From assembly GCA_030272155.1 (NCBI GenBank), contig CP126197.1:620001-684000 (forward strand): a DNA stretch of 64,000 nucleotides. Direction: 5' to 3'. The stretch comes from Tetradesmus obliquus (Eukaryota > Chlorophyta > Chlorophyceae > Sphaeropleales > Scenedesmaceae). The notes beneath the pieces were generated by a model. That model saw nothing but the letters and a program-made list of their open reading frames with translations, did not search any database and had not been told where the DNA came from. Position numbers and translations under genes: made by a program. This document shows positions 1 through 34,400 of this stretch, one piece after another (position 1 is the first letter of the stretch; every line of letters starts with the position of its first letter).

Positions 1-528
1 CACCATAGAAGACAGTGTGAATGCTGCAAGGTGTTAAGTTTGTCACTCGCATGTTGAAAGCAGTTGGTGAGGTGGCTGCCATCCTGGCTACGGGCCGTAG
101 CTGCACTCACATGCAGGTTACCACTGGCAACAGCTCTTATCAAGGCACCCTGAGTGAAGGTCCTTGATATGTCTGAGCTTGAAGGTATAAGGTTTTGCAC
201 GTCACAGCTGTTTGCTTTCACCACAAGGCACTTGACTGTCCAGTGATTTCAAACAGAGCCATGCGGTTTAGCAGGTGCCTGTGACAACACACCAGCCCAA
301 AATGAAGCTGCGGTGGCAGGTCTGGCACGCCATCGTAGTCTTTGATTCATCTGTTTCATCTTGGCTCCTCAAACGGGCATTCATAGTCTGCTGCTGCCTT
401 TTTTCTTTTTTTCTTTTTGCGTTACCTGAGCCACTTTCTGTGCATCAAGATGCAGCGCTGATCTAGCGCAACCAAAACGCGTTCATCGTTGGTTTGGGAA
501 AAAGTTCATATTTAGGATTGGGCTTCAG
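1..528. other. 5' flank of the alpha/beta hydrolase gene
   Basis: I see no convincing coding region here. A 63-codon plus-strand frame at 275-466 has no recognisable motif. A pyrimidine run lies near 397-420. The stretch probably holds the promoter and 5' UTR of the hydrolase, whose proposed start is at 529. Confidence 0.4.
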
Positions 529-3262
529 ATGATCACGTCCAGGGTGCTAACGTACCTGGTGGTTGCCGTAGCGGGTTTGGTTGTGCTGCCATGGTGAGTC
601 GATGCTGCAGTGAAGGCGCTGTACGTGCGGTCAGCAGCTGAACGTCTCCTAAGCAGGCGATCGGCTGTCTTTGCTGGTCGATACCTGCATTGCAGGGATA
701 CTGATGTCATCCCAGGGCCTCTGCCAAGGGATACATCTCAGACAGAAGCAGATGCGCCTCAAAACACAGCAACGTATACTCGGGAGGTTATATACTTCCC
801 TTGCTCCGGAGAGAGGTGCCAGGCATGGCTGTACATGCCCAAGCAGGGCCTGGCGCCAGGCAGGAAGCCACCCATTGTCATTGCTGCTCATGGCCTGGGT
901 GGGTGCCGATGCCGCAGCAGCTGCAGCAGCACATGCTATGCTTGACCCTTACAAAGTACGGCTCAATGGCTGATGTCTTATACATCCACAACTGCCTTGA
1001 ATGCATGTGAGTTGTGCATACGGAGCAGAGGCAAGGCATCCCATGCCGCAGCCGTGCTGTGCTGCCACACAGCAGTGCAGCTGCCTGATGTACCCGCATC
1101 ATCGTCTGCACAACACCGCGCCAGACCATATGCAGTGATGTGCAGCAATGCCATGTCAATTGTCACACAACGTGCATAGCTCAATGCGAGGCCCCCTATG
1201 CCCTGCCTCTTCAACACTCCCTGCCATTATGACCGCAGGTGCCCAGAAGGACTTTGGCTTGGCAGCATACGGCGAGCGCTTCGCAGCAGGCGGCCTCGCC
1301 TCACTCATCTTTGACTACCGCACTTTCGGCGGCTCAGATGGCGAGCCGAGGCACTGGGTCAGCCCTAAAAGACATTTGCAGGACTGGCAGAGTGCAGTTG
1401 ACTATGCCGTTTCGCAGCTGGGGGAGCAGGTGGACACCAGTAAAGTGCTGCTGTGGGGTACCAGCTTTGGGGGAGGTCACGCGCTGACCACCGCTGCAGC
1501 GTTGAGGGAGAACATCACAGCAGTGGTGGCGCAGGTGAGCAGCAAGTGCGGCAGATGAGTGAGAGAGTGACAGGGTACGGCTCTGAGCAGTAGCGGAAGC
1601 GGTACTGCGAGAGTCTGACTGCAGTTGTGGCAATGTTCTTGGGGGTAGGGAGCGAGTGGAGTGCAGTGATGTGTCTTAACAATTGCCGGGTGCTGCTGTG
1701 GGGCACCAGCTTTGGGGGCGGCCACGCGCTGACGACTGCTGCAAACTTGAGGGACAACATCACAGCAGTGGTGGCACAGGTGGGCAGCAAGTGCGGCAGA
1801 TGAGTGAGAGAGTGACAGGGTACGGCTGGGAGCAGTAGCGGAAGCGGTACTGCGAGAGTCTGACTGCAGTTGTGGCAATGTTCTTGGGGGTAGAGAGCGA
1901 GTGGACTGCAGTGATATGTTTCAACAATTGCCGGGTGCTGCTGGGGGACCAGCTTTGGGGGAGGCCACGCACTGACGACTGCTGCAGCATTGAGGGAGAA
2001 CATCACAGCAGTGGTGGCACAGGTGGGCAGCAACTGCGGCTGGGAGCAGTTGGCTGGCTGGTTTGGTCAGAGTTCGAGGCAGTTGCTGCAAGCCTTGCGG
2101 TATCAAATGAGCGAAACAGGTGTGTCCGCAACTGCTGCAGCGTTGAGGCAGAACATCACAGCAGTGGTGGCTCAGGTGAGCAGCAAGGCAGGCACATGAG
2201 TCAATGCGTGGCACGGTACGGCAGTGAGCAGTAGCGGAAGCGGTACTGCGGGAGTCTGACTGCAGTTGTGGCAACGTTCTTGGGGGTAGGGAGCGAGTGG
2301 ACTGCAGTGATTCGTCTTAACAAATGCCAGGTGCTGCTTTGGGGCACCAGCTTTGGGGGAGGCCATGCGCTGGCAACCGCTGCAAATTTGAGGGACACAA
2401 CACAACACAACACAACACAACACAACACAACACAACATCACAGTGTGGTGGCGCAGGTGGGCAGCAGCCTGAGAGTAAGAAAGGGAGTCAGTGTTTGACA
2501 GGGTACGGCATTGACCAGTAGCGGAAGTGGCTGCAAGAGTCTGATTGCAGTCGCGGCATCGTTTGTTGGGGACAGGAGCGAGTGGACTGCAGTGATGGAT
2601 GCATCTGCAGTTGCCGGGTGCTGCTGTGGGGGACAAGCTTCGGGGGCGGCCTTGTGCTGACGACTGCTGCAAACTTGAGGGACAACATCACAGCAGTGGT
2701 GGCGCAGGTGAGCAGCAAGGCGGGCAGATGAGTCAGTGAGCAACAGGGTACGGCAGTGAGCAGTAGCGGGAGTGCAACACAAGGAGCGTGGCTGCACTCA
2801 AAGCGCTTGCCTGGGCTAATGGCACTGCCATACGTTGCGCTGCAGATGCCAGCTGCAGATGGCAAGGCCCTCTTTTCACCCAGCTGCCAAGTGCACTCAC
2901 CCCTCGCCTGCACTAACACTACTGTACTTGCTTTCCCATGCATTGACAGGTGCCCTTCACGGACGGCAAGGCGGCGTGTGCCAAGAATGTCAAGGAGCGC
3001 AACTACGCTCGCATCACTCACACCTTCTCACCCCTGCTGACACCGGATTTCTTTCTTGTATGCAGGTGCCTTTCACGGATGGAAACGCGGTGTTTGCCAA
3101 GAATGTCAAAGAGCGCGGCTATGCGCACAGAGCGCGCGCCGTCATCGCCGCGCTGCATGACATGTGTTGCGCTGCAGGTGCCCTTCACAGACGGCCAGGC
3201 CGCCTTCGCCATTCATGTGTAAGATGCTGCTCTGCTTGTTTGCATGTGCTGACAGCGCTGCC

Positions 3263-3297
<35 letters not shown>

Positions 3298-4519
3298 GGG
3301 CTTCAGGTGCCCTTCACGGACGGCAAGGCCGCATTCGCCAAGAACGTGAAAGAGCGTGGCTACGCGCGCATCGCGCGTGCCGTCATCGCCGCGCTGCATG
3401 ACATGCTGCGCAGCGCCATAAACATGCCGGCGGCTTACTACCCGCTGATCGGGGAGCCCGGCATGACCAACTTCATGGGGCTCACGCAGGATGAGCAGGA
3501 GGCATACTACGCAAAGCACCCTGCAAAGAAGCAGGTGGGCGGGGAGTGGTGGCTCCGTGTGTGCTGCGTTGAGTGTGTTATGATTTTAGGTGTGCAGTCA
3601 AAGAGGCAGCAACAGCAACGCCATCGGTCATAGGCAGGCCTGTGGAAAGTGCAGGTACTCATGTAGGTGTTTGTGTACGTTCTTTGCAGGGCTGTAGTGC
3701 TTTTTTGGGGGGCCTGCCTCTGTGGAGCTGCTCAGCAGAGCGAAAACGCCGCTGTACTGTGCTACAACATACCGCTGCTGCTCTGGGCTTTTTTATTGGA
3801 TGCAGGGTGGCTGGCGCAACCTTGGCCGCTGCAGGCTCGTGCTTGAGGCCTCCGCCTACCGCCCCATCACCAAACTGCACCTGCTGAGCAGTGCTGTAAT
3901 GCCGCTGTACTGCTGTTACGCTGGCTGCTGGGCGGCTGGCGCAACCTTGGCCGCTGCAGGCTCGCCCTTGAGGCCTCCGCCTACCGCCCCATCACACTGC
4001 TGCACTGTACCGCTGCACATGTGACGAACATGTTGTACTGTGTTTGTTTTTGGCTGCAGGGCGGCTGGCGCAACTTGGGCGGCTGCAGGCTGGCGCTTGA
4101 GGCCTCAGCCTACCGCCCCATCACACTGCTGCACTGTACCGCTGTGCATACAAAACACGTTGCACTGTGCATATTTCTGGATGCAGGGCGGCTGGCGCAA
4201 CTTGGGCCGCTGCAGGCTGGCGCTTGAGGCATCCGCGTACCGCCCCATCACACTGCTGCCCCAGATCACAGCCCCAGTGCTGTTTGCAGCCGCCACCAAG
4301 GACCAGCTGTGCCCCCTAGATGGTGTGAAGGCAGCTGTGGCAGTTACACCGAATGCACAGCTGGTGACCGTGGACACGAATCACTTCCAGGTGTATAGTG
4401 GGGAGGCACTGGAATACCTGAGCGAGAAGTATGTGGAGTTTTTCAGGCGGGCGGCTGGCCTGCCGGCAGAGGTAGCAGCTAGCAGCAGCGATGAGGAGCA
4501 GCCTCAGGATGTGGAGTGA
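529..4519 (+). CDS. Membrane-anchored or secreted alpha/beta hydrolase (5 exons, 374 residues)
   Basis: Exons read as 529-593, 696-898, 1239-1534, 3307-3534 and 4187-4519; all junctions are GT-AG and in phase. The first exon gives a 22-residue hydrophobic segment (MITSRVLTYLVV...), probably a signal peptide or anchor. The rest is an alpha/beta hydrolase: oxyanion region HGLGG near residue 87, FDYRTFGGSDGEPR at 114-127, nucleophile elbow GTSFGG with Ser165, probable acid Asp303 in TKDQLCP, and probable His330 in TNHF. It resembles the dienelactone hydrolase/X-Pro peptidase-like esterases; substrate unknown. The start was chosen because the only open frame upstream of exon 2 meets a stop at 595-597, whereas splicing 593 to 696 restores a signal-like N-terminus. 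Introns 3 and 4 and the 3' flank are packed with partial copies of the neighbouring exons. A TGTAA at 4750-4754 could serve polyadenylation. Confidence 0.85.
1445..2707 (+). repeat. Tandem copies of the hydrolase exon-3 end (nucleophile-elbow exon), six copies
   Basis: The last 90 bases of exon 3 (1445-1534, reading VLLWGTSFGGGHALTTAA to AVVAQ) recur at 1690-1779, 1935-2022, 2131-2175 (partial), 2331-2456 and 2618-2707. The first three are spaced at exactly 245 bases, so the unit includes intron sequence. Every copy is followed by a GTGAGC or GTGGGC donor. Copies 2, 5 and 6 still spell GTSFGG; copy 3 has lost two bases and its frame; copy 5 is interrupted by a microsatellite; copy 6 has Leu where the first has His. 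They all lie inside the 1535-3306 intron. Confidence 0.92.
2396..2436. repeat. CACAA pentanucleotide microsatellite
   Basis: About eight tandem CACAA units sit inside the fifth copy of the duplicated hydrolase exon end, between the parts reading NLRD and VVAQ. They interrupt the copy, so it is unlikely to be a functional exon. Confidence 0.95.
2950..3405 (+). repeat. Tandem copies of the hydrolase exon-4 start, four copies
   Basis: The acceptor CAG followed by the coding start VPFTDG(K/N/Q)A occurs at 2950, 3066, 3178 and 3307. Only the last copy (3307-3534) continues through the full exon to a GTGGGC donor. The second reads well into VIAALHDM, the first is close to 70 bases, and the third ends at a TAA after about 42 bases. 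A CTG run (about 3265-3296) lies just before the functional acceptor. Here the copies precede the intact exon, the mirror image of the exon-3 array. Confidence 0.92.
3806..4253 (+). repeat. Tandem copies of the hydrolase exon-5 start, four copies
   Basis: The coding start GGWRNLG(R/G)CRL(A/V)LEASAYRPIT occurs at 3806, about 3931, 4060 and 4187, with spacing near 127 bases. Copies 1, 3 and 4 have a TGCAG acceptor directly in front; copy 2 does not. The last one is the start of the full terminal exon. Confidence 0.92.
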
Positions 4520-4944
4520 GGCGCGGGCAGTTGGAAGTATGTTGAGTTTTTCAGGCAGGCGGCTGGCCTGCCGGCACAGGTAGCAGCTAGCAGCAGCGAT
4601 GAGCAGTAGCCACAGCATGCGAAGTGAGGCATGGCCAGCTGGGGTTCAAGGGCAGGCGGCTGGCCTGTTGGCAGCAGTGGCAGAGACGGCGGCCAGCAGC
4701 AGCGATGAGCAGCAGCCACAGGGCGCGGAGTAAAACGGGGCAACCTGGGTGTAATGTAGGTTCTTTGAGCAGGCGGCTGGCGTGCTGGTTTAGGTGACAA
4801 AGGGGGCGGCTGGCAGCAGCTAGGCGTAGCAGCCACAGGATGCAGAAACAACAGTGTTTTTTTTGCGGTCCAGGCAGCTGGCCTGCCGGTAGATATGAGA
4901 GAGGCTGCGGCTGGCAGCAGCGATGAGCAGCACTGCTCTGGCTG
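4427..4944 (+). repeat. Tandem copies of the hydrolase C-terminal coding end and stop region
   Basis: The segment coding KYVEFFRRAAGLPAEVAASSSDE at 4427-4519 is followed by decayed copies starting near 4535, 4651, 4766 and 4872, about 108-116 bases apart. The second still reads KYVEFFRQAAGLPAQVAASSSDEQ and then a stop; later ones keep mainly the AAGL...AASSSDE core. They lie downstream of the real stop, in the 3' UTR or beyond. Confidence 0.85.
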
Positions 4945-6166
4945 AGGGCGCTTTTGTTGGTGGGCATGCCCTCAGTTCAGTGAGTTACTGCCAGTACAGT
5001 AGTTGGCCATCATGGTTCGGGTTGTTGCTCTACGCCCAATCACACATTTGCTCCGAGCCCTGGTATTGGCTCTATAGCATGCATTCCTGTCCCTTGTAAG
5101 AAACACATTTCCTGGTACTGTATACAGACTATTTTCGGGGTCGCCAGCAAACTACTCTCTATGTGGAGCAGCAATGCACCAGAGGCTATTTGGATACAAT
5201 GCATAGGCTTCAGTGCGTAAGAATGACAGACAGAGCTCAGCACAGCCTACTGTACCTGGCAAACAATGATTATGAGTCAAAGGTGACACATGTTTGGCAA
5301 CGATAAATGTAGCTGCATGGCCACAGAAGACGCACTTCACCAACACAGCTGCATGGCCACACAGAACGCACTTCACCAACAAACCTCCAGACTTCCGACA
5401 CCAACACAAAATGAAGGGTGGGCTGCACGACGGCCAGCGGCATCGACGTCCAGAACCAGCGTCCTGCATCCTTGCTGCTGGATCCAGCACTGTGACGTGG
5501 TGCCTACTGCTGTGTCGACTCCAAAGATCAAAGCATCATCCAAAATGGCTGCCTCCCGCAGGCCAACATAAACAAACAGGCACCTTGCAGCCACCGTGGC
5601 TATGTGACACTGCAACGCCCTCAGCTGCTTCCCCAAGCACCGGCGGCCTGTCATGCCTGCAGCATGAGCAACGCGCCCTCCACTTCTGCTGCGAGTGCTG
5701 GATTGCTGCTGCTTGACTCCTCTGCCGCTGCCGCACGGCTCCCCAGCTGCACCAGTGCAGCGCTACTGTCACTCAAACCTGCTTGGGCTGTTGCTGGATG
5801 GCCGCTGTTGCTGCTTTGCTGCTGTCAACTCCTGCTGGGTGCACGGCTCTCGAGCTGCACCAGTGCAGCGCTACTGTCACTCAAACCGGCTTGGGCGTGA
5901 CGTTGCCCTGGTGGGGCGCGAGGGTAGATGCTGTGTGTGTGCAAAGCAGGAACAGCATCAACGGTAGCAGCAGGCATATGGCAGCAGCAGAATTGATGTC
6001 AAAACCAACTTGAAGCTTGAAGCTACCATACACCTCTGCAGGTTGCAGGGTTGCCAAAGGCTGCAGCTGGCTCAGCATATACTATCAATACGAGCTTTTG
6101 CCGTTCTCTTCGATGGTGCATGGCTGCGCAAGGCATATGAATAGCGTGCATAAGCACCAGCCACTA
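4945..6166. other. Region between the hydrolase and the coiled-coil gene
   Basis: No conserved protein is recognisable. It contains the duplicated block at 5720-5897 and, on the minus strand, open stretches (for example 5373-5654) that could be 3' UTR or terminal exons of the coiled-coil gene. A plus-strand pair of near-identical phrases (GCATGGCCACA...CGCACTTCACCAACA) lies at 5316-5380. Confidence 0.4.
5720..5897 (-). repeat. Two-copy duplication downstream of the coiled-coil gene
   Basis: About 50 bases recur at 5736-5793 and 5842-5897. Read on the minus strand both give the frame [15 protein letters not shown], and both contain a GGTGCAG acceptor-like site in phase with the donor at 6215-6220. 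After that site one copy reads LESRAPSRS and stop; the other reads LGSRAAAAEESSSSNPAL... to a stop near 5657. They may be alternative or duplicated terminal exons of the coiled-coil gene; this is inference. Confidence 0.5.
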
Positions 6167-8484
6167 CTAAACACGTCCTGAACCACCTAGCACTGAAGCC
6201 AACCGAACACTCCAGCTCACCTCACTCATCTGCTGCAGGTGCTTGGCGGCTGCAGCCTTGCTGTGCGTTGCTCGAGCAGCACCAGCCTTCTCAGGATGCT
6301 GCTGCTGCTCCTGCTGCTGCGCAGTGCCAGGCTCCTGCTTAACCTTCACTGCGCCGTGCTCAGCGCCAGCAGCAGCAGCAGCAGCAGTGCCCGCTGCGGC
6401 AGGTCCTGCTGCTGCCGCTGCTGCTGCCACACCCACCGCAGCTCCTGCTGCAGCTGCCCTGCGCGCCATGCGCCTTGCAATGGGCGGCGTAGGGGCTACA
6501 GCCCCGGCCGTCTCCGCAGCCTCCTCACTTGCAGCTGATGCCGGCGCCTCTGCTGGTGCTGCTGCTGCCAGCCGCCGCTGCTGCAGCCTGCCAGCTACAC
6601 CCCTGCCCCCTGGCCCTGCTGCTGCAGCAGCTGCTTCAGCAGCACCCCTGCCCCCGCCTGCCCCTCTGCTGTGCCCAGCAGCAGCACCAGTGCCACCCCC
6701 ACTACCATGCCTCGTATGCGGCTCAGCAGCAGCAGCAGCAGCAGCACCCTGCTGCTCACCCAACCCCTCATCATCACTACCTTCACCAGCAGGCTCATCA
6801 CCGCCACCCTCACCCCCACCATCAGTATGCCTGCGCCCAGCTGCCCCCACACGTGCAGCAGCAGCCTCAGCAGCAGCAGCGCGCGCCTCAGCCTGCTGCA
6901 CAGATATGGCAGCCGCCACCACCTGCAGGTCCGCCTGCTGCAGCCGCGCCGTCAGCAGCTCGCAGCGCTGCCGCGCAGCCTCCAGCTGCTGCTGCTGCTG
7001 CGGCGGCGGCGGCGGCGGCGGCGGCTGCCGCAGAGCCTGCACCTCTGCCTGGCTGGCCTGCAGCTGCTGCAGCAGCTGCTGCGCTGCTGCTGCATCCTGC
7101 TGCAGCTGCCCCTCCAGCGCCTCAACCTGCTGCCGCAGCTCCTGCACCTCTTCCTCAGTATCAGCCGCACCCCCTGCACCCCCAGCAGCAGCAGCAGCAC
7201 TTGCCTTTGCTGCCGCTTTCTCTGCCTCCTTCACTCGCCGCAGCAGCTTCACCACCTGCTCTTCTGCTTTAGCTGCCCTGTGCTCCGTATCTTCCAGAGC
7301 CTCTTTCGCCTCTGTGAGCTCCTCCTGCAGCTCCTCAAGCCGCAGCGCAGCAGCAATACTCGCCATATCACCACCCGCTGCTGCTGCTGCTGCTGCTGCA
7401 TCCGCATCCTCGCCAGCTGGTGGCGCTTGTTTGGTGGCTTTCTTGGCTCGCTTGGCTTTGGCTGCAGCGGCCTGCTGCTGCTGCAGCTGCGCCCGCAGCT
7501 GCGCAACCTCCTCCTGCAAGTCAGCCACCTGCTCTTCTTTTGCAAGCCGCTCACGCTGCTGCTGCTGCAGGTCCCCTTGCAGCTCCTTCTTCTGCTGCTG
7601 CAGCTGCCGCACTTGCTTCTGCAGCTGCTTCAGCTGTTGCTGCTGCTGCTGCTGGCTGGGGCCCTGCTCGGGCTCATCCTCCTCTTCTTCCTCACTGCTG
7701 CTCCCATCCTCATCCTCCGACGCATGCTCACCCCGCCGCGCGCGCTTACGCTGCTGCTGCTGCTGCTGCGCAAGCTCCCATTGCTGCTCGCGCGCCTGCA
7801 GCTGCTGCAGCTGCACCTCCTGCTGGTCAAGCTGCTGCCGCTGCTGCGCCAGCTGCAGCCGCGCCTGCCGCAGCCGCTCGCTCAGTCCCGAAATCTCCTC
7901 ATCCCGCTGCTGCAGCTTCTGCTGCTGCTGCTGCAGCTGCTTCTCCAACTTGGCCTCCCGCCCCTCAATCTTCTGCAGCCGCGCATACTGCTGGCTGCTC
8001 TGCTCCCGGTACTGCTGCACTTCCTGCTGCGCAGCGCGAGCAGCGCGCTCCGCGCCGGCTGCCCTGGCGTATGCGGCTGTCAGGCGCTGAGTCAGCATTG
8101 CATTCTCTGCCCGCAGGCTGTCCTGTGCCCGCAGCTGCGCATCCAGCGCTGCATCTGCCTGGCGGCTCTGCAGCACGAGGTCCCTGCTGATGACTGCAGC
8201 CTCAGACAGCCCGGCAGCGCCAGGCAGCAGCAGCGCAGCGCTGCCGCCAGCAGCAGCAGCAGCAGCTCCGTGGTCCACTCGGCTGGGTGGCGCCGGCAGC
8301 GCAAGCAGCTGCTGGGCATTGCTGGGTGCTACTGCAGCAGCTGGCAACGCCGCCCTGCCAGCACGTGCTGGGCTGCCAGCAGCAGCAGCAGCAGCTGCAG
8401 GTGGAGGCCTGCCTGCGCCTGCGGCTGCCCCTTGGCTGAGTGCTGCAGGCGCCTCCTCCTCCTCTGCCTCCTCACTGTCTGCCT

Positions 8485-8515
<31 letters not shown>

Positions 8516-8824
8516 CTGCGGCCCCTTGCCCTTGAGCAGCGCAGACAGGCCGGTCTTGGCCATGCTCTGCAGCTGAGGCCTGCCCAGCTTGGATGGGCTG
8601 GCAGCAGCAGCAGCAGCTGGTGCTGCAGGTGCTGCAGCTTGAGCTGGCTTGCTTGGGGAGGCAGCCACGGCAGCAGCGCTGCTGGTGCCAGCAGCAGTGG
8701 CTGGCTGTGCCGGCTGCTGCTGCTGTCGCTGCCTCTGCTGCTGCTGCTTCACCAAGCCCTGCACCATCTGCCTGCGGATGGCACTGCCGAGCGCAGGTGG
8801 ACGCTTGGCTGCTGGCACTTTCGC

Positions 8825-8858
<34 letters not shown>

Positions 8859-9691
8859 GCTGCCATACTTGGCAAGGCAGTGGCTGGCTGTGCTGGCGGT
8901 GTCCTTGCTCCAGGCTGCAGCTGCCTGGGTGCAGCAGCAGCAGCAAACTGTGGGAGCTGTGCTGGCTGAGGCATGGCGGCAGCAGGCTGCTGCTGCTGCT
9001 GCAGTGCTGGCCGCTGTGTGACAGGCTCAGTGGCTGGGTGGCACCAGCGCACGCCACGCTGCTTTGGCTTGGCAGCAGCAACAGGCTGCATCCTTGCCTG
9101 CGGAACGCCTGGCGCATGCGCCGCTGCTGCTGGCATGTGCATTGCAGCGCCCCTGCCTGCAGCTGCTGCTCCCCTGCCTGCTGCCATTGCTGCCAGTACA
9201 GCTTGCGGCATCACCAGCATGGGCCGTTGCACCAGCACAATTTGGGGCCTGGGGCTGGATGCTGCTCCTGGGGCTGGCTGTGCTGCTGCTGGCAGTGGAG
9301 CAGCTGCTGCTGGTGCTGTTTGTTCAGGCCCAGGCACTGCTGCTGGCACTGCTGCAGCTGCTGCTGGTGCTGCTGCTTCAGATGCCGGTGGTTCAGGCGC
9401 AGCCACATGCGCAGGTGCTGCTGCTGGGACACGCTGCTGTTCCTGCTCCTGTCCCCCGGCAGGAGCCTCTGCTGCAGCAGCTGCTGCTGCTGTAGGAGAC
9501 TGTGCCTCCTGCCTGGGCTTCTTGTGCGATGCATCTGCTGCCTCTGCATCACGTTCGGGGCTGGATGCTGCAACACGTTTGCCCTGGGCAGTCGGAGAGT
9601 GCTCAGCCCCGCTCAACTCCTGCGCCTGTTGCTGCTGCTGTTGTTGCCCAGAGCTGCCTGATGCATTGCCTGGGTGCCAGTCCGGCTCCAT
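6167..9691 (-). CDS. Gln/Ala-rich coiled-coil protein, probably nuclear
   Basis: A single open frame of about 1,170 residues starting at the first ATG (MEPDWHPGNASG). The upstream in-frame codon at 9712 is TTG. Residues 1-60 hold poly-Gln and a basic HKKPRQ patch; about 70-500 are Ala/Pro/Gln-rich low complexity; about 520-1000 form a long Leu/Gln heptad-like coiled coil with an acidic patch (SEDEDGSSSEEEEEDE) and basic KRARR and KRAKKATK clusters; the end is again Ala-rich with KVKQEPG. I know no family with this layout; scaffold-like nuclear or cytoskeletal roles are guesses. At 6215-6220 the frame crosses a GTGAGC donor in phase 0 (MSE before it), so the last 18 codons may be intron and the true C-terminus may lie in the duplicated block near 5.7-5.9 kb. 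The long antisense frames come from the triplet repeats. Confidence 0.65.
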
Positions 9692-9712
9692 GGCGTAGCG
9701 GCAGCGCGTCAA

Positions 9713-11235
9713 TAATGCTTATGTTGTTCTGTTTGTTGTGCGTTCAGCAGGCAATGCGTGCTATGTTGTGCGTTGGTGGACACGGTTGTTTCGTACACAG
9801 GTACTAGGCACGGCAAGTATGTGGAGCAAAAACTTGACAGTATGACATCTTACAAATGCAATCAGTTGGGCTGAATGGTGCGAGACGACGGTGTTCTGCT
9901 CAACGGCTAGCCAGCGTTGCATCAACACAGCAAATCCGTGCACGACTTGAGCTAACTCTTACGTCAAAAAAACTTGTTTGGGTGTTCTCGCGCAGCAGCA
10001 GAAGCCATTCGAGTGCATCGGGCTGGACTCTCAGATGGTCAAATCTGCTGAGCCAAGAACCCCACTGGGCCGAAGGCCTGGTGCTTCAAGACTTCTCAGT
10101 GCTGGCCCTGTCAGATAGTCTGAAGGGTCCCCTTGACCATCGGCAGCCTGCATTGGTGTATCAGCTCACAGCACTAGGAGCAGCATTGCTGTGGCGGGGA
10201 CTGTCAAAATCCGGCGGCGTGGCATGGCATTATGGCACTTGGGGCGTGTAAGCTGGGTGCAGGGATTTGGTACAGGACTCTGTGTAATGATTCAAGCCGC
10301 TGAACTTGTCGTGTGATGCAAGCCATCAACTGCTGGCAGTAAAGGCACTAACACTAACACTGCAGCAGGGCCAACCAATGGTTGGACCTGCTGCAGCAAT
10401 GGTGCCTCACTGCCATGAAACACATGTGACCTGAGCACTGCATTGCACTTGCAAGGCAATGTACTGTATGCACAATGTTCAGGACTGCCACAAGCTGAGG
10501 CACTCCAATGTAACGCGCTGGGAGTGCGACGCACTGCGTCTCCCAGCAAGGTTGAAGTTTTTGAGCAACATGTTTGATTAACTTGTTTTGTTAAGCTGCA
10601 CACAACGCCATTAGCAAACTCTTGCCACCTCCCCAGCACGCAGCACAGCGCTGTGCTGGCTTGGCGCCAAGCGACACTGTTTTGCGCTGCTAGACTGTTT
10701 AATGGTATACAAGCACCGCATACAACCCAACTAGTTGATAAACACGCGTTACTCGCGCTTGGTCTCTCGGGCGAGACCAGCCGGGCCAGCTTGGCTGAGC
10801 TAGCCTCTCGACACTATACTTGTGCTGAGCTGGACGTTTGAGGGATGTATACAGCAACAGGGAATGGTAATGGAAGTATAGAAGCCTACCGAGTTGCTGT
10901 ATGGGCGCCGCACAGGAACAGCAGTAGCCCTGGCGCGCAAGCGCTGCAGCAGCTGTCCCAGCCAGTGCAGCCATTACTCTGCTCACTTGCACAAAGAGCA
11001 GCACAGAGGTGAGCACATCCACATGCACATGGTGCAACAAATCCTATGAACAGACACTATGGCAGCAGCTGCACAGCTGTCTACACCCCAGCCATGGCCA
11101 CGTGTAAGTTGCCCTGCAGGCACAGGCTAGTGTACTAGCTACGTACCTCTGTACACAATGCACAAGTGTGTGATGCAGTTGTTCCTGCTGTTGCGCCCCT
11201 GAAATAACACACCGTCCAACAATACGAGCGCGAGT
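9713..11235. other. Intergenic stretch without a supported gene
   Basis: Several 60-130 codon frames occur on both strands (for example plus 9856-10251), but none shows a motif, domain or convincing splice pattern. It probably contains the promoter of the coiled-coil gene at its left end. Confidence 0.45.
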
Positions 11236-11522
11236 ATGTCACTGCTTCACTCTGCGTGCATGTGCATGCGTTGCAGGCAGTCTCTAGCCAAGCAGATCAG
11301 CAGCAGCAGGACAGTAGAAGATTCGCTATCCTTACTGCGGCAGGACATCAACAGCAGCTACAGCAAACTGTGTGCAGCAAGAGGCATGGCACCTCCAACA
11401 CTGCAGCATGGCAGGCTGCCTGCAGCAGCAGCGGCAGCTGCTGCCTTTGCCCCTGCTGCAGCTTCGTCAGCGGCTTCGGAGCTCAAAGCATTACCATCAG
11501 CAGCATCAGTAGCACCAGACGC

Positions 11523-11562
<40 letters not shown>

Positions 11563-12185
11563 GTTGCAGGCGTGTTGCCCTTGCAGTTGCTAAGTAGATC
11601 CATGTGCAGCAGTAGCGCAGCAGCAACACTGGACAGGTGGCCCTGCTCGACGCTTGCATGCCTGCAGCGCCAGCCACCTGCAAGCCCGTTACTAGCAGTG
11701 CAGCCTTGGTCATGTGGCAGAAGTGCTGCTGCTGGTGCTGCTGGTGCCATAGCGCACTTCAGAAGCCCCGCAGCCCTGCAGCAGCAGTTCCACACAGCTG
11801 TTGCAGATGTGTCTGCACAACAACTTGAAGTTGCTGCCAAGGTGGGCAAGGGAGCCCGCTGATGCCAGGCTGAGGACTGTTTCTGCTGCACAGTCTTTGC
11901 ACGCTATCACATGAACCTTTTGCTTGGTAAACTATTGAGAATTGACTTGCTTTGCATATAAACAGGGTGCTGAAGCGTCTTATTGCAGGCTGCGGCACAC
12001 TGGCTGCAGTTGCCCACGCGAGAGATTTGTGCAGTTGGAGCGTGACGCATAGCACCATCTGCTGCTGCGTGCAGGTGCTCAGCGCAGCAGGGCCCCTTGC
12101 GCTGCATGTGCCACAATACCGACGGCTGCCCAGGCTGCAGGCTGACCCACTAGAGACCCTGGAGCTGGAGGCAGCAGCAGGATGA
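11236..12185 (+). CDS. Hypothetical low-complexity protein, two-exon model
   Basis: Proposed exons are 11236-11841 and 12075-12185 (GTGGGC donor, GTGCAG acceptor, both phase 0), giving 238 residues. The N-terminal part (SLAKQISSSRTVEDSLSLLRQDINSSYSKL) looks like a folded helical segment; the middle is poly-Ala and a 13-Gln run near 11526-11564; the end reads VLSAAGPLALHVPQYRRLPRLQ and ...LEAAAG. I do not recognise the family. The helical N-terminal phrase faintly recalls repeats of algal organellar RNA-binding (OPR/RAP) proteins, but this is too weak to use. The 5' end may be incomplete. Support for the model comes from in-phase splice sites and from decayed copies of the terminal exon downstream. 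Confidence 0.42.
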
Positions 12186-12920
12186 GGGGCGGCAGCAGAT
12201 GTATTGCCGGGGTGGTGCAGCTGGAGCCTTTCACAGCAGCTGCGGCTGCCCAGGCTGCAGGCAGACCCACTGGAGGCTCTGGAACTGGAGGCAGCAGCAG
12301 CGTGAGGGGACCCTGCAGCGTAGGTGTTACACTGGTGTTTTTGTGGTGGTGCAGCTGGAGTCATTTGCAGAAGCTGCGGCTGCCCCACTTGAGGTCCTGC
12401 TGGAGGCAGCAGCAGCGTGAGAGGCTGCCTGCCAGAGCGTGTGGTATGGGTGTGAGGGGCTGCCGCAGTGCAGGACAGACTACCACCACGCTTGCGACAA
12501 GTGATGCAGCTGAGTCGCCTGCAGAATGCGCGGCTACCCAGGCCACCACACTCGTGACAAGTGACAAGTGACGCAGCTCCACACACGCAATGGCAATAGA
12601 CTACCACACTTGCAACAAGTGGTGCAGCTCAGTCACCTGCAGCAGCTGCTGCTAGCCAGGTTGCAGGCTGACCCTGCAGAGGCCCAGCTGTGCACTGCTG
12701 TTGGCTTGAGGCGCTGTCATTCAGTTTGCTGTGTCAGATGGAGTGTGATGGGCTGCTGCAGTGTGTATTGGCCAGGTTTCGCTTTCTGTTTGCCCAATGA
12801 GCGTGTCATTGGCTCCCCAAACTGGCGAGGTTACCCGTGTGTGACGTTGAAGATGTGTGGCTGGGACTGGCGCAGCTGATTTGCCTGCAGCGGCTGCGGC
12901 TGGCCAGGCTGGAGGCTTTG
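12110..12920 (+). repeat. Decayed tandem copies of the terminal exon of the 11.2-12.2 kb gene
   Basis: The phrase coding (L/R)RLPRLQADPLETLELEAAAG and stop at about 12118-12185 recurs with decay at 12238-12305, 12369-12420, about 12520-12560, 12630-12690 and 12878-12925. Typical shared core bases are GCTGC(C/G)CAGGCTGCAGGC and CTGGAGGCAGCAGCAG. The copies get less similar with distance. The pattern matches the 3' duplications in the hydrolase gene. Confidence 0.7.
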
Positions 12921-12925
12921 TACTG

Positions 12926-14200
12926 CAAAGGCTGGTGGCTGGGACTTCCTAGTAGGCATTGCTTGAGCCTGACGGCCTGCAGCTGCCAGCTTTTGTTGCA
13001 GGCAGCGGTTGTTGCTTTTCCCAATTCCCACGTCAGGCCTGTCAGTCTGTTCATGCTTTGTTGATGGTCGGCGATGCAGTGATGCCAGTGGTGAGATGCA
13101 GCTACATGTGGGACGCGTTGACGTTGACATGCTCCACACAGAGCGGATGCTTTGATGAGTCAGGTCAAGGAGGCGTTGCCAGGTGGATACCCATGTAAAC
13201 ACATCGACGTGTTGCTAGATCTCAAGTGATCATAGACGTTCTTCTAATCTTGCTTTGCATCCATACCCAGCAAGTAGGATGCAACAAACGTGTGCAGACA
13301 GTAAAGCAAGCAGCCAGGGTTGGTCTTTTGGCTGTAGCTTGGCTGGACACAAAAGACATTCACGTGCTGATGGCTTCTACAGTACTGTGCTAACAGCACA
13401 CGGCGGTGGTGTGGATGCTGCATGCAGCTCATGAGACCTCTACAGCGGCCAAACACACATAATAAACAAGCATGACAATGTATGCTCATACAATGCTGGC
13501 TCACACACGGCCGAGGATATGCGTGAACGTTGTACGTACAACGTTGTACTGATAACAACAGCATGTCTGCACCAGGCTACCGTTCATGGCAAATGGCAGA
13601 TGATATGCAGCAGTTGCAGGCTTCAACTGCACTAGATGAGTTGGTGCAGCAGCAACACAAGCTCTAAAAGTCTTGAGCACATGCAGCTGACCTGTGCAAA
13701 ACAACCATCTGAAGTTGAACCCCAGCGGAACCCGGAAACAGCCCGAAAGCCAGTCAATGGCTCCGTGCGGGAGGTTTGATGGTGGTGCCACCAACATGAT
13801 CTGCAGCACAACACTACTCCAAACGCTGGCTGCAGCCGCACACAATACAGAAGCACAGGAGCGCACACAAATCACAGATGCGCCGGCTGCGCGGGTGACA
13901 GAGGTGTCCGCGTTCAACAGCAAAAGCATGCCAAGCAACAGATATGGGAACGTTTCGTGCATCCTCTGTGACCAGGAGACAGAGACCTCCAAGGGCTGCA
14001 CGAACAGGGAAACTGAAACGGCTTGCAGCAGCTTTCATCACAAAGAACCACTTGGCAGCACTGCCCATCAGCATGCTGCTAGCAGTTCTGCGGTGACATG
14101 ACCCTGACCCTGACCCTGAAGACTCTTGGTGCACGTCTGGTACTGCAGCACGCCAGGTCAATCATTGCCTGCATCATCAGCCCGTGGGTGCTGCTGCTGC
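12926..14200. other. Intergenic stretch without a supported gene
   Basis: Open frames occur on both strands (minus 13501-14001; plus 13694-14101) with hydrophobic or low-complexity content but no family I recognise. Part of it is likely the 3' flank of the SGNH gene, which is transcribed toward it. Confidence 0.4.
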
Positions 14201-14215
14201 TGCTGCTGCAACCTG

Positions 14216-14700
14216 CTGCTGCCCCTGCAAATGCCGCCTGTGCCGTAAGGGAGGTGCGGTGCCATCGCTGTACTGCTGGTGCACAAACAGGACTGTGTGG
14301 GACTGCCTGACAGGGCAGGTCACTGCTTCCCTGTAGCATGCCTCTGCAGCTGTGGCTAGCTTGCCCCCTGCAGCCGCCGCCTGTGCCACAAGGGAGGTGT
14401 GCTTTAGGGTTCAGGGTTTATGTTTTGTGTTGCCTACATCAGCCTGTGGCTGCTGCTGCAAGCTGCTGCTCCTGCAGCCGCCGCCTGTGCCCCAGCGGAG
14501 GCACTGCGCCGTCGCTGTACTTGAGCCCAGTGGCCCCAGCAGCCGTAGCCTGTGCCCCAGCACAGGCGAAGAACAGCACGCCAGTCCACTTGTTGCCTGT
14601 GTCAGGCCATTGCTGCTGCCGGAAGCTGCTGGCCCTGCAGCCGCCTGTGCCCCAGCGGAGGCACTGCACCGTCGCTGTATTTGAGCCCAATGGCCCCAAC
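14216..14700 (-). repeat. Tandem copies of the SGNH-gene C-terminal coding end
   Basis: On the minus strand the last coding phrase GLKYSDGAVPPLGHRRLQGQQL (about 14629-14692) recurs downstream near 14462-14530 (YSDGAVPPLGHRRRLQEQQL), partially near 14360-14400, and near 14205-14275 (YSDGTAPPLRHRRHLQGQQQ). The copies follow the stop at 14602, so they lie in the 3' UTR or flank, as in the hydrolase gene. Confidence 0.85.
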
Positions 14701-17700
14701 GTCAACGGGGGTGTGCATGATTGCATTCGTGTATGGTACAACGGCCACAGCCTGCACCCGTACCCAATCGTTGTCCTTGATGGTTATGCGCACCGTGCAA
14801 GCTGGGCCGCCCAAAACCTGCACATCACAAGAAGGGACAAGGAAAGCAGATAACATCAAGCTGGGGGTTGTTTAGGCGGTCAATGTGCACAGGAGGTGAC
14901 GTGCAAGGAGCCAACACCGCAGCAATGCACCAGCAATGCATCAATGGTTGTGCCCGCTGCGCGCTCTGCATGCAGCGGCGCTGCATTGCAACCCATGGAT
15001 TGAACAATTCAATTGCGTTATCATGGCGAGTGCAAACATGTGTCCAACAAGCAGTGGCGCAGTTGTCAGTGACAGCCTCATGAGCTCAACCGCACAAAAC
15101 AGTTCACAACCGCAGGCAACCCAGCACTGTGCTCAGAGTCTGATGTATGACCAGCTGCAGCCCACAAAAAACCCAAGTCTATCTATTGTCGTACCTCTGT
15201 GCTGTTGGTTGCCACCGTCGCTTTTGTGTCTCTCCGTGCCCCCTCCAGCAACATCGGCCGGCATGTGCAGCCACTTTCACATGTCAGCTGCGCCTGCCCC
15301 ACAGTGCCCTTCTCTCCGGGCAGGTGAATCACACCACTCATAAAGAACACTGTTATTGCACGCCGGTTCAATGTGCCGCTAGGTGACTTGGCAGCGCTTA
15401 AGTCCAGCTGTAAGTCGAGTGTTGAACCTCTGCCTCGTGCTTGCATGCCAATGCTCTGGCAGTTTGGCAGCTTGCAGCCACGTGTAAAAGTCAACCCCTC
15501 CAAATGCCAGTCAACAACAGCCTGCTGGGTAGCGGTTGCGTTCACACCCATTGTGCCGTTTGTCGGCACAACGGCGCCCGACTGCTCTATGTTATTTCCT
15601 GAAATAACACCTGTATCCGCTGCACCTGATGATCCACTGCTGCTGGCGACCACATAGCTCTGCAGGTCCCTCCCTTCTGCACACCAGCTGTCGCCGTCGA
15701 TTTGAGCAACAAGAGGGCTGACTGGCCTCGGCACAGCTTCGTTGGGGGTGGCTGCTGCACCGCCTGCAGCGAGCGCCTGCAGCTCAAGTGCCAGCGTCTG
15801 CCGCACACCCCAGGCGACCAAGCCACGCCTGCATATGCAGCATTATACACAGATTGTTGGGGGATGAGGACTAACACAATGTATGCTGGGAATATGCCCT
15901 GCGGCTGGCCTGCAGCATTAACATGCATTGCATGCAGCACAGCAGCACAGGCGCCAGCGCTTGCTGTGCAATTGGTGCGGCAGCAGCGCGTGTGTCATCA
16001 CTCATACAGAGCATGTCCCATGATGGTCGCGCGCCGCGTGTTGCTGGTCCATAGCACATGGATGCATCACAGCTGCTGCAACAGCCTGACTGCAATTTTG
16101 CTCCTGCTGCTTGCGCTTCTTACTCATACAGAGCATGGCCCAGTACAGTGGGGTGCCGCGTGTTGCTGGTCTGCAGCATAACAATGCATTACAGACGCTG
16201 CAACATCCAGACTATGGAGGTGCTGCTGCTGCTGCTGCTGCCGCCGCTGCTGCTTCTGCGTCTCACCCATACAGAGCATATCCCAGTATGGTGGGGTGCC
16301 GTGTGTCTCTCAGCAGGTCCTTGCGGGTGGCATTAAGGATGCATAAAAGCTGCTACAATAGTCAAATCCTATGTTGCTGCTGCTGCTGCTGCGTCTCACC
16401 CATACAGAGCATGTCCCAGTATGGTGGGGTGCCGCGTGTCTCTCAGCAGGTCCTTGCGGGTGGCATTAAGGATGCATAAAAGCTGCTACAACAGTCAAAT
16501 CCTATGTTGCTGCTGCTGCTGCTGCGTCTCACCCATACAGAGCATGTCCCAGTATGGTGGGGTGCCGCGTGTCTCTCAGCAGGTCCTTGCGGGTGGCATT
16601 AAGGATGCGCGTGAGGGCCTTGTCACTCCACATGATGTCATACAGGGCATCACGTGCCTGCAGTTTATAGCGGCAGCAACAGCTGTATTGGCAAGGGCAA
16701 GCACAGCAATAAGCAGCCAACCAACGCTTGAGAGCATTGCTGGCACTTGCTTGCGCGTTACGTATGCAGCTGCTGACGCGAGCCGCTGCATTGCGCTGGC
16801 AGCTGCACAGTGCTGGTCACTGGTGTGCTTCAACTCGAGGGTGTAACACTGCTGGCTGTTTCACAACAAATGCTTACTTTTGAATATTGGAGTATATTAT
16901 TACTACGTAGCAAACACACTCACGCTGATCAGGGGCATGTTGTAGCGTGTGGCCAGCATGGAGTGCACCTCCTCGCCTGCAACAGCAGCAGCAGCGGCAG
17001 CAGCAGCAGCAGCATACAGATCATCCAGTGCCAACACAGCCTACTGCTGCCAGTGGTGTAACACGCCATGATGCTCTTCTGCATGCCATTTGACACTTGC
17101 TGGGCTGCGGCAGCATTCAAGGAGGTTCCAATGATCATTATGCTGGAAGGCGGCAGGTGCCATGAAACATCACATTCTTACGAATGACATACGGTTGCAG
17201 CTGCTGCGTACCTGCAGCATCTTCAAGCATGACAGTTGAAACATGACTGCATAGCAAGCCTGCTGCACATACCTGAATTGTAGTATGGTGCAGGTATCTG
17301 GCGGGTGCCGTTGTTGTTGGGTGTGGCTACGTCAAAAGTGTCAAAGCTGAACATGTCAAACGCCAACAGCGCAGCGTTGGGCACCTTGCGGATCAGCCGC
17401 CGTATAAGAGACTCGTACGCAATAATCTGCAACAGCAACAGCAGCAACAGCAGCAGCCGCCGCCGCAGCAGCAGCATATCAGGCTGAGCGCCAACTGTCG
17501 CCCTTTCCGGCAGTGCTGGCTTCGTCTGCACTGAAGGTGCTACAACTGTACTAAAAACACACCATTGTTGCGGGCCGTCACCAAGCATGCGCTGCTACAC
17601 AACTGGCAGCAGTGGTAAGCTGCAGCTAACAGTGTCAGCAACGCCAGGCGTGATCGGTGCAACTGCTGCACTCAAGCTCCACTTGACAGCTAAAGCTCGG

Positions 17701-18683
17701 TCGCTGCAGAAGTCCTGCTGCTGCGCACCTGCGGTGTCACCACTGAGAAGCAGTTGAAGTAGCTGCAGCTGTTGAGGTTGTACTCGATCAGCACAAGATC
17801 TGCCTCTGCAGGAGTCTGGTGGTACCAGCAAGCCTCAGCCATGGGGACGTTGGTGGCGTCACGCGCCAGGTTCACCTGCATGTGCAACAGTGAAAAGCAC
17901 CGTAATGCAATCTACCATGAAACGTATGGCATGATTTGACGTACTGTGGTGCAGAAGGTGGCAGCTCTGTGAATGTGGCATTGTGCATACCGTTGAGCAG
18001 CTGGCGTGACAACTGCCTGCACCACAGCTGCAGCAAAACGCTGCTGCTGCTGCTGCTGCTGCTGCCGCTGCTGCTGCCGCTGCTGCTGCTGCTGCTGTGT
18101 GACATTAGCAGCTGTCCCGCACCTGGATGATGTTTGTGTTGATGAATGCCGACTGCAGCCAGCTACAGAACTGGCTGACCCAGTTGGCACTTCTCACAGG
18201 TAGCCCAAAGCCTGTGCTGGCTGAGCCGCCAAACACAACGACTGTTATGTTAGATCCTGGCGTGGCAAGCTTGGCGGCCAGCCGCCGCCAGTTTCTGCCA
18301 TTGAGCTCGTCTTTCAGACCCTTCCGCAGCAGCCACTCAGGGCCATGAACTGCTGTGGGCATCATTGATTCGTAGCTGCGCTGTGCTGCTGCAGCTAGGG
18401 CCGATGACTGTACGGGCGCCTGGCTTGCTGCGGCCTGCAGGGCATGTGCTGCTGCTGCACCACTTGTCGCTGCTGCTTCTTCTCCAAGTGCAGGGCCTTC
18501 AGGCGCTGCTGGCAGCCGTACTGCATGTTTCAAGCTACTTGAGAATTGTTTGTGGCAGCGCCTTTGGTGTTTGCTGCATTTGTCCGGGCTCTTGGCGGCG
18601 GCAATGTCGCTGCAGTGAGCGCTGAGAAGCAAGACCAGCACCAGAGGCAACACCCTCACTTTGACATGATTCGTCCTGGTCAT
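14602..18683 (-). CDS. Secreted SGNH-hydrolase-like protein (7 exons, 629 residues)
   Basis: Exons, in transcription order: 18683-18123, 17875-17729, 17426-17273, 16976-16924, 16657-16533, 15828-15195, 14817-14602; every junction is GT-AG and keeps phase. Residues 1-29 form a signal peptide or anchor (VLPLVLVLLLSAHC). The SGNH fold is shown by VVVFGGSASTGFG with candidate nucleophile Ser154, a block like that around the family Asn (LVLIEYNLN, 214-222), and DTRHPTILGH with Asp334 and His337 as the usual D-x-x-H. A second Cys-containing domain follows (RDLQSYVV..., TCESGCTC, ACTVRITIKD), a combination I associate with a family expanded in green algae. Likely an esterase or acyl-modifying enzyme of the secretory pathway or cell surface; substrate unknown. 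The intron after exon 5 carries further copies of that exon's end. The neighbour upstream on the same strand is a glycosyltransferase. Confidence 0.88.
15995..16620 (-). repeat. Five tandem copies of the SGNH exon-5 end with its splice donor
   Basis: The 3' part of exon 5 (about 70 bases, coding ILNATRKDLLRDTRHPTILGHALY) plus its donor GTGAGA recurs downstream in the intron. Copies are anchored by the CTCTGTATG(G/A) end at about 16533, 16401, 16267, 16123 and 16002, spaced 121-144 bases. The first three copies are almost identical across the coding part; the last two are decayed and have lost the DTRH region. A CTG/CAG run sits between the units. Confidence 0.92.
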
Positions 18684-31400: not shown

Positions 31401-34400
31401 CCTCTAGCACACATGCATGCAGATTGTATGAAGCATGCAAGCAGCGGCAGCAGCGCACGGCAGCCCGCACTCCTTACGCAAAGCAATGCTTCATTGTCCA
31501 TCACCGCTGCAGCCTCAGTGCTGCTGCTTTTGTGTAAGCATACATCAGCTCACCTTGTTGATGAAAAAGTCCCAGCAGTTCTCATTGGTGTCCAACAGCC
31601 CTGTGGCCTTTACTTCGTTGCGCACTGCATTGCAGAAGTTGTCCTTGTCTTCTGGCGTGAACAAGTCTGACACAATGCCCGTGGACAGCAGGTCGTTGAT
31701 GTACACCAGGAACTGCTCCTTCACAATCTGGTTGTCAGTCATGAGGAAGACCACGGGCTGGCCCTTGGCACCGGCCTGCATTTACACCAGCGACAGAAAG
31801 GGCATATATTGTTGTGACAGATTCCAGCAAACAAGAATCACCCGCTTGGCAGTGCACATGCCAAGCTGGCGTGCAGGGCGCATGCAAGGCCAAGCAGGTA
31901 GAAGTAATGCATCAGCAGCAGGCGCCATAACCGTTGTTTGCCCTCATTTTGTTGCACACCCTGCGCACCTTTGTGTACAGTGCCAGCAGTGCCTCCTTGA
32001 AGTCTGCAACACCGTAGGTGCTGCTGACCGCAATCTGGAACACGTCATAGCCGCTGATGTGAGCTGCCAGGCGTGCCAGGGACTGCTTGCCGCTGCCGCC
32101 AACGCCCACCAGCATAGCATTGCCCCTGCAGCAATCCAAAAACATTCCCACATTCAGCAATGCAGTGCTTCTTTGAATGACAAAGCAAAACAAAGTGCAG
32201 CCATATCATGGTGTACTAGGCATAATGTGTTTGAGTAACATGTAGATCACGCATGAGGCAGCCAGAAAGCTGCTAGGACTCATGCACAGACCACACCCCT
32301 CTCCCGCCGTCTGATTACTCACCTTGGCAGGTCGATGATCCTGCTGATGCGCGTGACGTGCTCCATGGCCTGTTGGAACAGCACCAGGTCCATCACAGCA
32401 TTCGTCTCGTTGTACTCTGCTAGCTTGTCCTCAAGGTCCTTCTTCAGGGACTCATACGTAGGCACTGGCGTGTACACCGGGGTATCATCGGCGCTCTGCT
32501 GTGTTTGACAAAGCAGACGGGGAACAGAGCAAACCAGCAGTGGTCAGCAGCTGCGCATGGTGTGCACCGCAGCATGCAGTGCTTAGTTTCAATGCTGAGG
32601 GTTGCCGGTGTCTTGCAATGGCGAGCGGGGCAGAATTGACAACACTGTTGCGCAGGCACCAGCCACTGCAGCCACAGCAGCAGCAGAGCCGCACCTGCAT
32701 GAAGCTGGTGAACAGCAGCGGCCGCTCCTCCACGCTGGCCAGGCCCAGGTCCTCAAAGTACTTCTTGGTCACTGACGCCCTGAACTCGTCAAACTTGGCC
32801 ATGTCCGTGTCGTTGACCATGCGGTCGCGGAACACGCGCTCACACTCGTGCACCCACAGCCGCGCAGCCTGGGAAAGCAGCGGCGGCAGCAGCAGCAGCA
32901 AGTGGCAGTGTAAGGGACAAGTGTTAGGGCATAAAAACAGCAAACACACAAGCATACACGTAAACCACACAAATGGCTGCACCCACACCAGCGCAGGGCT
33001 CAGCAAGCGCACAAAGGCCACAACACGTCCTCGGCTGCTGCAGGGCTGCACTCAAGGTGGCTCACCTGCACCGGCTGCCTGTACACATCCTTGGTCATCC
33101 TGCACATGCCGCCAACAATGTTTGACGTCTCGCGGAGGTTGAACTGGTAGTGGAACTTGACCGCAGACGGCAGGAAGTTGTTCATCACCTGCACACACAA
33201 ACACCACAGGGTTGGAACATGGTGCTTGAAAAGCAGCAAGTGAAACACGTAAGATGCGGCATGCACAATGCGAACAGCCTGGCATGTTTCCATTGCTTTG
33301 TCTATGGTGGCAGCAGCTGCTGCCCACCAGCACTCAGCTGACAAGCCTCAGACCCAGCCAGCATGCAGCATGCATGTTTGCAGCAAGCCCTAGCTGCTCC
33401 AGCACCACCCACCAGGCGGTGCAGCTCAATGGTGGCGTCCACCAGCTTGCCAGACAGCCGCGCCACATCGCTGTCAAAGCCGCCGCTGCTCAGGTGCCCA
33501 TCCATGATGGCAAAGTAGATGCTGCGCACAATCTCCGCGCTGGGCATCTGCACTGCGAACGTCACAAAGTGGCGCTGCATGCGTGGCGTGATGTTGAAGC
33601 TGCCTGCGGTGGGGTTCATGCAGGCCACGTACTGGCAGTTCATGACCTCTTTGAGTAAGATCTTGACCTTGTCGTACCAGCCGCGGTAGTCAACAAGCTG
33701 GCGCGCCAGCTCGATGGCTGACTGCGTGTCGTACTTGTCAACGAACGGCATGTTCATGTCGTCGATGAAGTACACCAGCCTGCAAACAGGATGGAGGCAG
33801 CAGTTGGTACGTGCATGAGCAAGGCCATCCTGCAGCGTCTGCAATCGACAATGATGTTCTTGCTGTGCAATGTGACACCCCACAGGTGACAGCAGGTGTA
33901 AACAAGCAAGTTGTGGCCAGCGACCCAGGCAGCAGTACAAGTGAAGCCTTGACAAGTGTGAATTGATTTACATGGATTTGTAAAAGACTTGACATGAGTA
34001 AAGCTCCACTTTTACTGCTGCCTGTGTTGCTGGCAACAGCATGCTTGTTTACACTTGCCACACATTGCTTCAGCTGTGTACATGTGAGCAAGCTGCCGCA
34101 TGACCTGGCACACGCACCTGCGGGAGCCTGGCGGGCCGTATCTCACGCCGCTCTTCTTCTCCAGCGGCTGCTCCATCAAGACCTGCAGGCTGGGCGCGTC
34201 GCTGAAGGAGTTCATGTTGATGGTGGTGTAGGCCATGGCCTCGGGGTCCATGCTGCGCAGCTTATTCATCATGATGGCGGTCTTGCCGGTGCCGGTGTTG
34301 CCCACAAACATGGCGTAGTGCCTGCAGCAGCAGCAGACACCATAACACACAATTGTCAGCGCGCCGCCCAGCAAGCGCATACAATGCTGCTTCACAGAAA

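Follow-up and report, generated by a model that had tools for sequence, protein, structure and literature searches.

Local copies of exon ends lie beside their own exons in genes of Tetradesmus obliquus

Results

Exon-end arrays in the 64-kb window

The window, a 64-kb stretch of Tetradesmus obliquus DNA (C7:620001-684000), contains an alpha/beta hydrolase gene whose joined exons form an open 387-amino-acid reading frame with GT-AG introns and whose product matches the Pfam family Hydrolase_4 (E=7.8e-16). An earlier note on this DNA had placed repeat arrays at exon ends, acceptors and the stop of this gene and in an SGNH gene, and probably in a gene at 11.2 kb, and self-comparison bore out each of these assignments (Table 1). 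All four hydrolase arrays found by self-BLAST straddle a splice junction or the stop. The exon 3 array has its intact copy at 1445-1534 and the rest 3' of it, inside intron 3, the first further copy, at +245, being a full unit that includes an intron part. In the exon 4 array the intact copy begins at 3307 with three decayed copies upstream, and in the exon 5 array the intact copy begins at 4187 with the others at about -380, -255 and -126. The stop array opens with its intact copy (stop codon 4517-4519) and continues with decayed ones in the 3' flank.

Table 1 Genes and exon-end arrays in the window
Feature	Position	Strand	Composition or evidence
Alpha/beta hydrolase gene	529..4519	+	exons 529-593, 657-898, 1239-1534, 3307-3534, 4187-4519 (stop)
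Hydrolase exon 3 end and donor array	1445..2772	+	self-BLAST, TRF period 245, unit inspection
Hydrolase acceptor and exon 4 start array	2947..3405	+	self-BLAST
Hydrolase acceptor and exon 5 start array	3757..4259	+	self-BLAST, TRF
Hydrolase coding end and stop array	4426..4932	+	self-BLAST, TRF
11.2-kb gene, last exon with copied end	12075..12428	+	self-comparison
SGNH gene, coding end and stop with two copies	14198..14698	-	self-comparison
SGNH gene, exon about 16657-16533 with its end and donor copied	15973..16657	-	self-BLAST, TRF

The SGNH gene has copies both of an exon end with its donor and of its coding end with the stop. The stop lies near 14602, with its two extra copies downstream, at lower coordinates; the donor-end copies span 15973-16608, downstream of their exon, with young 133-bp units (98% alike) adjoining the exon and older units farther out. 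The last exon of the 11.2-kb gene (12075-12185) ends in TGA, and its coding end and stop are repeated downstream to 12428, the stop being in frame. For the coiled-coil gene, which the earlier note had also counted as probably affected, self-comparison detected only a two-copy repeat at 5696-5896 and did not confirm an exon-end array. A local copy accompanies five of the 89 well-scored exons in the window: four lie in its first 15 kb and the fifth at 54.3 kb.

The multi-exon genes between 17 and 64 kb are nearly or wholly free of arrays. Other features of the window are a young head-to-tail duplication off any recognized exon (40802-41078; 136 bp, 97%), a perfect 52-bp palindrome at 63637-63688 and an imperfect 168-bp palindrome (76%) at 33892-34058. 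An Rfam search of the window returned no match, and a tblastn search for relatives among viral contigs found none. A nuclear RbcS gene, split over three matches, agrees with a green-algal origin.

Arrays are spread over the genome

We sampled 20 loci of 10 kb at round coordinates fixed before inspection and later added five loci of 6 kb. Genes were modelled with a home-made HMM gene finder, self-trained on the window and the loci, and exons of at least 70 bp with a score of at least 12 were classed as well scored. On the hydrolase gene this model was exact for exon 4 and for where exons 3 and 5 begin; it ran 11 bp beyond the end of exon 3, failed to recover exon 1 and most of exon 2, and predicted several copies to be mini-exons.

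The 20 loci contain 67 local direct arrays, in 12 loci (a count that includes some triplet-rich or distant pairs), and of the 159 well-scored exons in 18 of these loci, 49 are partly copied nearby; three of the five extra loci contain a further 13 arrays. Several genes had been thought affected, and the arrays prove to be spread over the genome, well beyond two genes. The product of one array-bearing gene, in locus L009, is PCID2-like (best E 8.5e-27, PCID2 chains in the PDB), and solved PCID2 proteins lack any equivalent of the duplicated stretches.

Riddled genes coexist with array-poor multi-exon genes, the latter in the 17-64 kb part of the window and in loci L004-L006, L019, L021, L022 and L028. 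We rejected chromosome-specific arrays: six sampled loci on C1-C3 and the paralog L024 lack junction arrays, but L029 (C2) has three arrays and L030 (C3) four. Predicted genes themselves form long-period tandem repeats, with periods of about 3.7, 4.3 and 3.7 kb, in L013 (C10:3000001-3010000), L020 (C17:1000001-1010000) and L032 (C17:2220992-2226991), respectively; L013 and L020 were left out of the copy and placement counts, and L032 also from the set of near-identical pairs.

Relatives of the hydrolase gene lie on C1, C5, C10 and C13. The C1 paralog (L024) has no array, and in the C13 paralog (L025) the counterpart of hydrolase exon 4 carries a fresh 210-bp array at its end, where the window gene has none. 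Because arrays differ between these paralogs, they arise independently.

Copies lie collinear with their exon and decay outwards

With triplet-rich matches removed, 63 of 264 well-scored exons have sense copies within 2.5 kb, 145 in all, whereas the same 264 exons gave two antisense copies (from one exon) and, against 5 kb taken at random from another locus, one copy. For analysis of layout we kept 133 of 170 copies, after removing 25 that were triplet-rich and 12 from one tandem array in L025. The intact exon, which the earlier note had put always at one end of its array, stands there for 112 of the 133 copies and not for the other 21: copies of 5' ends lie upstream and copies of 3' ends downstream in 112 cases (66 donor, 40 acceptor, 5 stop and 1 start), whereas 2,000 random placements averaged 10.4 such cases and never exceeded 22. 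Full copies of an exon number two among the 133.

Three further proposals, that copies decay outwards, that each brings its own splice site and so builds a ladder, and that introns grow in this way, agree with the data. Among 27 multi-copy arrays, the nearest copy resembles the exon more closely in 22, the farthest does so in three, and two are ties; GT is present in 43 of 53 donor copies and AG in 31 of 33 acceptor copies. The median gap between consecutive well-scored exons is 614 bp with copies (n=52) and 229.5 bp without (n=172), a difference that is expected in part because long introns offer more room. The distribution of offsets has one mode at 100-130 bp and another near 250 bp.

Excess at junctions is probably explained by loss and fading

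In a placement test with 500 shuffles of 77 arrays, triplet-rich ones removed, 61 touch the edge of a well-scored exon, none is exon-internal only and 16 touch no exon, whereas random placement gave 29.6 at junctions (maximum 44), 10.5 exon-internal and 36.8 elsewhere. The comparison of exon boundaries with interiors that the earlier note had called for thus yields a clear junction excess in the sampled loci.

This excess does not lend support to a preference of the duplication itself for junctions. Repeats lying wholly in introns fade faster because both of their copies drift. Among 91 junction copies, identity over the 40-bp intron flank is at least 75% in 21 and falls in the 0.65-0.75 band in 31. 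Scaling the random expectation for other positions accordingly (36.8 x 21/91 = 8.5) and allowing for loss of exon-internal events predicts a junction:other ratio of about 78:22, nearly the 79:21 observed (61:16), so a junction-seeking process is needless and we rejected junction-targeted duplication as the default. A modest junction preference may still exist, as the 78:22 correction is rough and the 16 'other' arrays include some on exons absent from our list.

Near-identical pairs suggest rewriting of old copies

Within one array, the exon parts of copies are 84% alike, whereas their 27-bp intron flanks are 60% alike (shuffled, 52%), a disparity beyond what plain neutral decay of a tandem duplicate gives. 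To the 19 pairs with at least 94% identity we applied two exclusions, a higher-order pair from a true tandem array in L025 and a pair in L026 that had looked like a recent copy and is a 28-bp minisatellite (1077-1249, about six units). Of the 17 left, five are head-to-tail or nearly so and 12, from ten arrays, are shorter than 0.65 of their offset. The description of the copies as tandem therefore stands in part: true head-to-tail arrays exist, with units that reach into the intron (hydrolase intron 3, 245 bp; SGNH gene, 133 bp; L025, 210 bp), but 12 of the 17 near-identical pairs are built otherwise. In ten of these 12 the similarity stops 2-14 bp beyond a splice site and in one 28 bp beyond it, while the remaining one starts 18 bp inside the exon; ten of the 12 have no flank similarity on either side.

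The simplest reading of these pairs is that the living exon rewrites short tracts of old copies whose spacers diverged long ago. Mismatches inside copies, analysed for the patchwork expected of gene conversion, are weakly clustered (10 of 62 alignments at p<0.05; Fisher 0.0009), and because the clustering is weak we infer rather than observe such rewriting. It is possible, if doubtful, that whatever produced or refreshed the near-identical copies halts at exon ends, for example rewriting templated by mRNA or cDNA, or gene conversion over very short tracts.

A stronger version would have a process that recognizes exon ends copy or renew them throughout, for instance by reverse transcription of spliced or unspliced mRNA and writing of the exon end into the adjoining intron, so that copies would consist of exon end plus splice consensus from birth. 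The near-identical copies, sharp-ended on both sides and stopping 2-14 bp into the intron in 10 of 12 cases, are what such a process would leave, and splice consensus alone could explain the few intron bases. The collinear layout and the units with 50-150 bp of intron point instead to ordinary local duplication at birth, and weak intron homology persists in many older copies (the 31 of 91 in the intermediate band), which together make exon-end copying as the origin of the arrays unlikely.

Copies behave like non-coding DNA

L014 and L025 were left out when we counted codon-position differences, gaps, stop-creating changes and amino-acid changes, and when we compared copies with one another. 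Over 106 copies, differences from the living exon amount to 7.5, 7.0 and 18.0% at codon positions 1, 2 and 3. The gaps comprise 18 that shift the frame and four that keep it, ten changes create a stop where 11.4 were expected, and the amino-acid changes match random ones in how radical they are. Because frameshifts, stops and radical changes come as they do in unselected sequence, the copies behave as non-coding DNA, without sign of coding selection. Protein-coding constraint on the copies is rejected on these three counts, and the third-position excess remains. A copy drifting freely beside an exon that drifts only at silent sites would give a ratio of position 3 to positions 1 and 2 of about 1.75. 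The ratio for differences between master and copy is 2.47 (2.05-2.99; 50 exons), above that value and an anomaly for plain neutral copies.

The same measurements bear on whether selection maintains the copies as functional mini-exons or regulated splice sites, used in alternative or recursive splicing. Most splice dinucleotides are indeed kept, at donors and acceptors alike (43 of 53 and 31 of 33), and the third-position excess recurs between copies (0.120, 0.097, 0.242), yet a divergence of 9% would leave roughly this many splice sites intact, frameshifts, stops and radical changes stand at the levels of non-coding DNA, and the copied stretches of the PCID2-like gene are absent from solved PCID2 proteins. 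We therefore regard function as quite improbable. That unresolved tandem copies or mis-joined reads created the arrays in assembly is barely credible, given that most copies differ from their exon by 5-20%, each in its own way, that the exon-relative layout is beyond what an assembler could know, and that the assembly consists of 17 chromosome-size contigs.

Discussion

Relation to known systems

Whole-exon tandem duplication is a local duplication that carries splice sites with it; in T. obliquus exon ends are copied, and whole exons rarely (2 of 133). Introners resemble the present arrays in adding intron sequence in bulk and differ in being dispersed related elements, whereas each array here is private to its own exon. 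We rejected dispersed intron elements on the single copy that 264 exons gave in another locus, and a genome search with window positions 500-2500 matched only itself, its own array and one paralogous stretch. Nor are the arrays ordinary minisatellites, which are head-to-tail and unrelated to exon ends, as 61 of 77 sit on junctions against 29.6 at random.

Tandem duplication is an established route to new introns (PMC3443670). In AGGT intron gain as described by Rogers, a small internal tandem duplication is likewise tolerated and the extra copy spliced out, but there an exonic AGGT segment yields a new intron one unit long, whereas in T. obliquus existing introns grow, with copies beside their own exon and spacers between them. 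Neither hydrolase intron 3 (1772 bp) nor intron 4 (652 bp) corresponds to a single duplicated exonic unit; both contain several shorter ones as well as spacers.

A precedent is a potato RdRp gene, in which one tandem duplication spans an intron-exon boundary (PMC4974935). There the 3' side of the intron and the 5' start of the exon, with the acceptor, were duplicated downstream of the parental intron, as in our arrays, but in one event in one gene, which gave rise to a new intron and turned part of the copy into exon. In T. obliquus roughly one sampled exon in three is accompanied by copies, be they of donors, acceptors or stops, and these copies appear dead. Joint duplication of an exon end, its splice site and adjoining intron, the potato type, is found in full in hydrolase intron 3, the SGNH gene and L025, and elsewhere in part, in that 21 of 91 copies keep at least 75% identity in the intron flank. 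The pattern, which the earlier note had not recognized as described, thus has a precedent in this one potato gene; in searches of openly licensed PMC papers, none of the titles and starts of abstracts that came up described its genome-wide form. The elementary event is already known, and what is new is its frequency, its polarity and the limitation of similarity to the exon.

A model of random duplication and selective loss

We consider that the arrays are probably the visible remains of frequent, small, random local duplications filtered by selection, some copies having later been rewritten by the living exon. Small local duplications, with offsets mostly of 100-130 or about 250 bp, would strike genes at random. 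Those internal to an exon would break the protein and be lost, while those over a splice site or stop would leave an outer intact copy usable and lengthen the intron or 3' flank. Repeated events beside the intact exon would push older copies outwards, and because of this displacement copies would decay with distance. The exon-derived part would stay recognizable longest because the living exon hardly changes, so that junction arrays would come to dominate the visible set. As a second layer, the living exon would rewrite short stretches of some old copies, confined to the part still alike, namely the exon end and the splice consensus.

Implications

Small exon-end duplications, filtered by selection, are a measurable source of intron growth in which each dead copy can be dated by its own divergence. 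If exon-end renewal is real, dead intronic exon ends undergo concerted evolution with the living exon during turnover of the intervening intron. Because about a third of sampled exons carry such fossils, a single genome could provide thousands of natural tests of how the spliceosome chooses one site among near-identical ones. Gene finders will call many of the copies as exons, as the HMM used here did, and annotations of T. obliquus may therefore hold spurious mini-exons.
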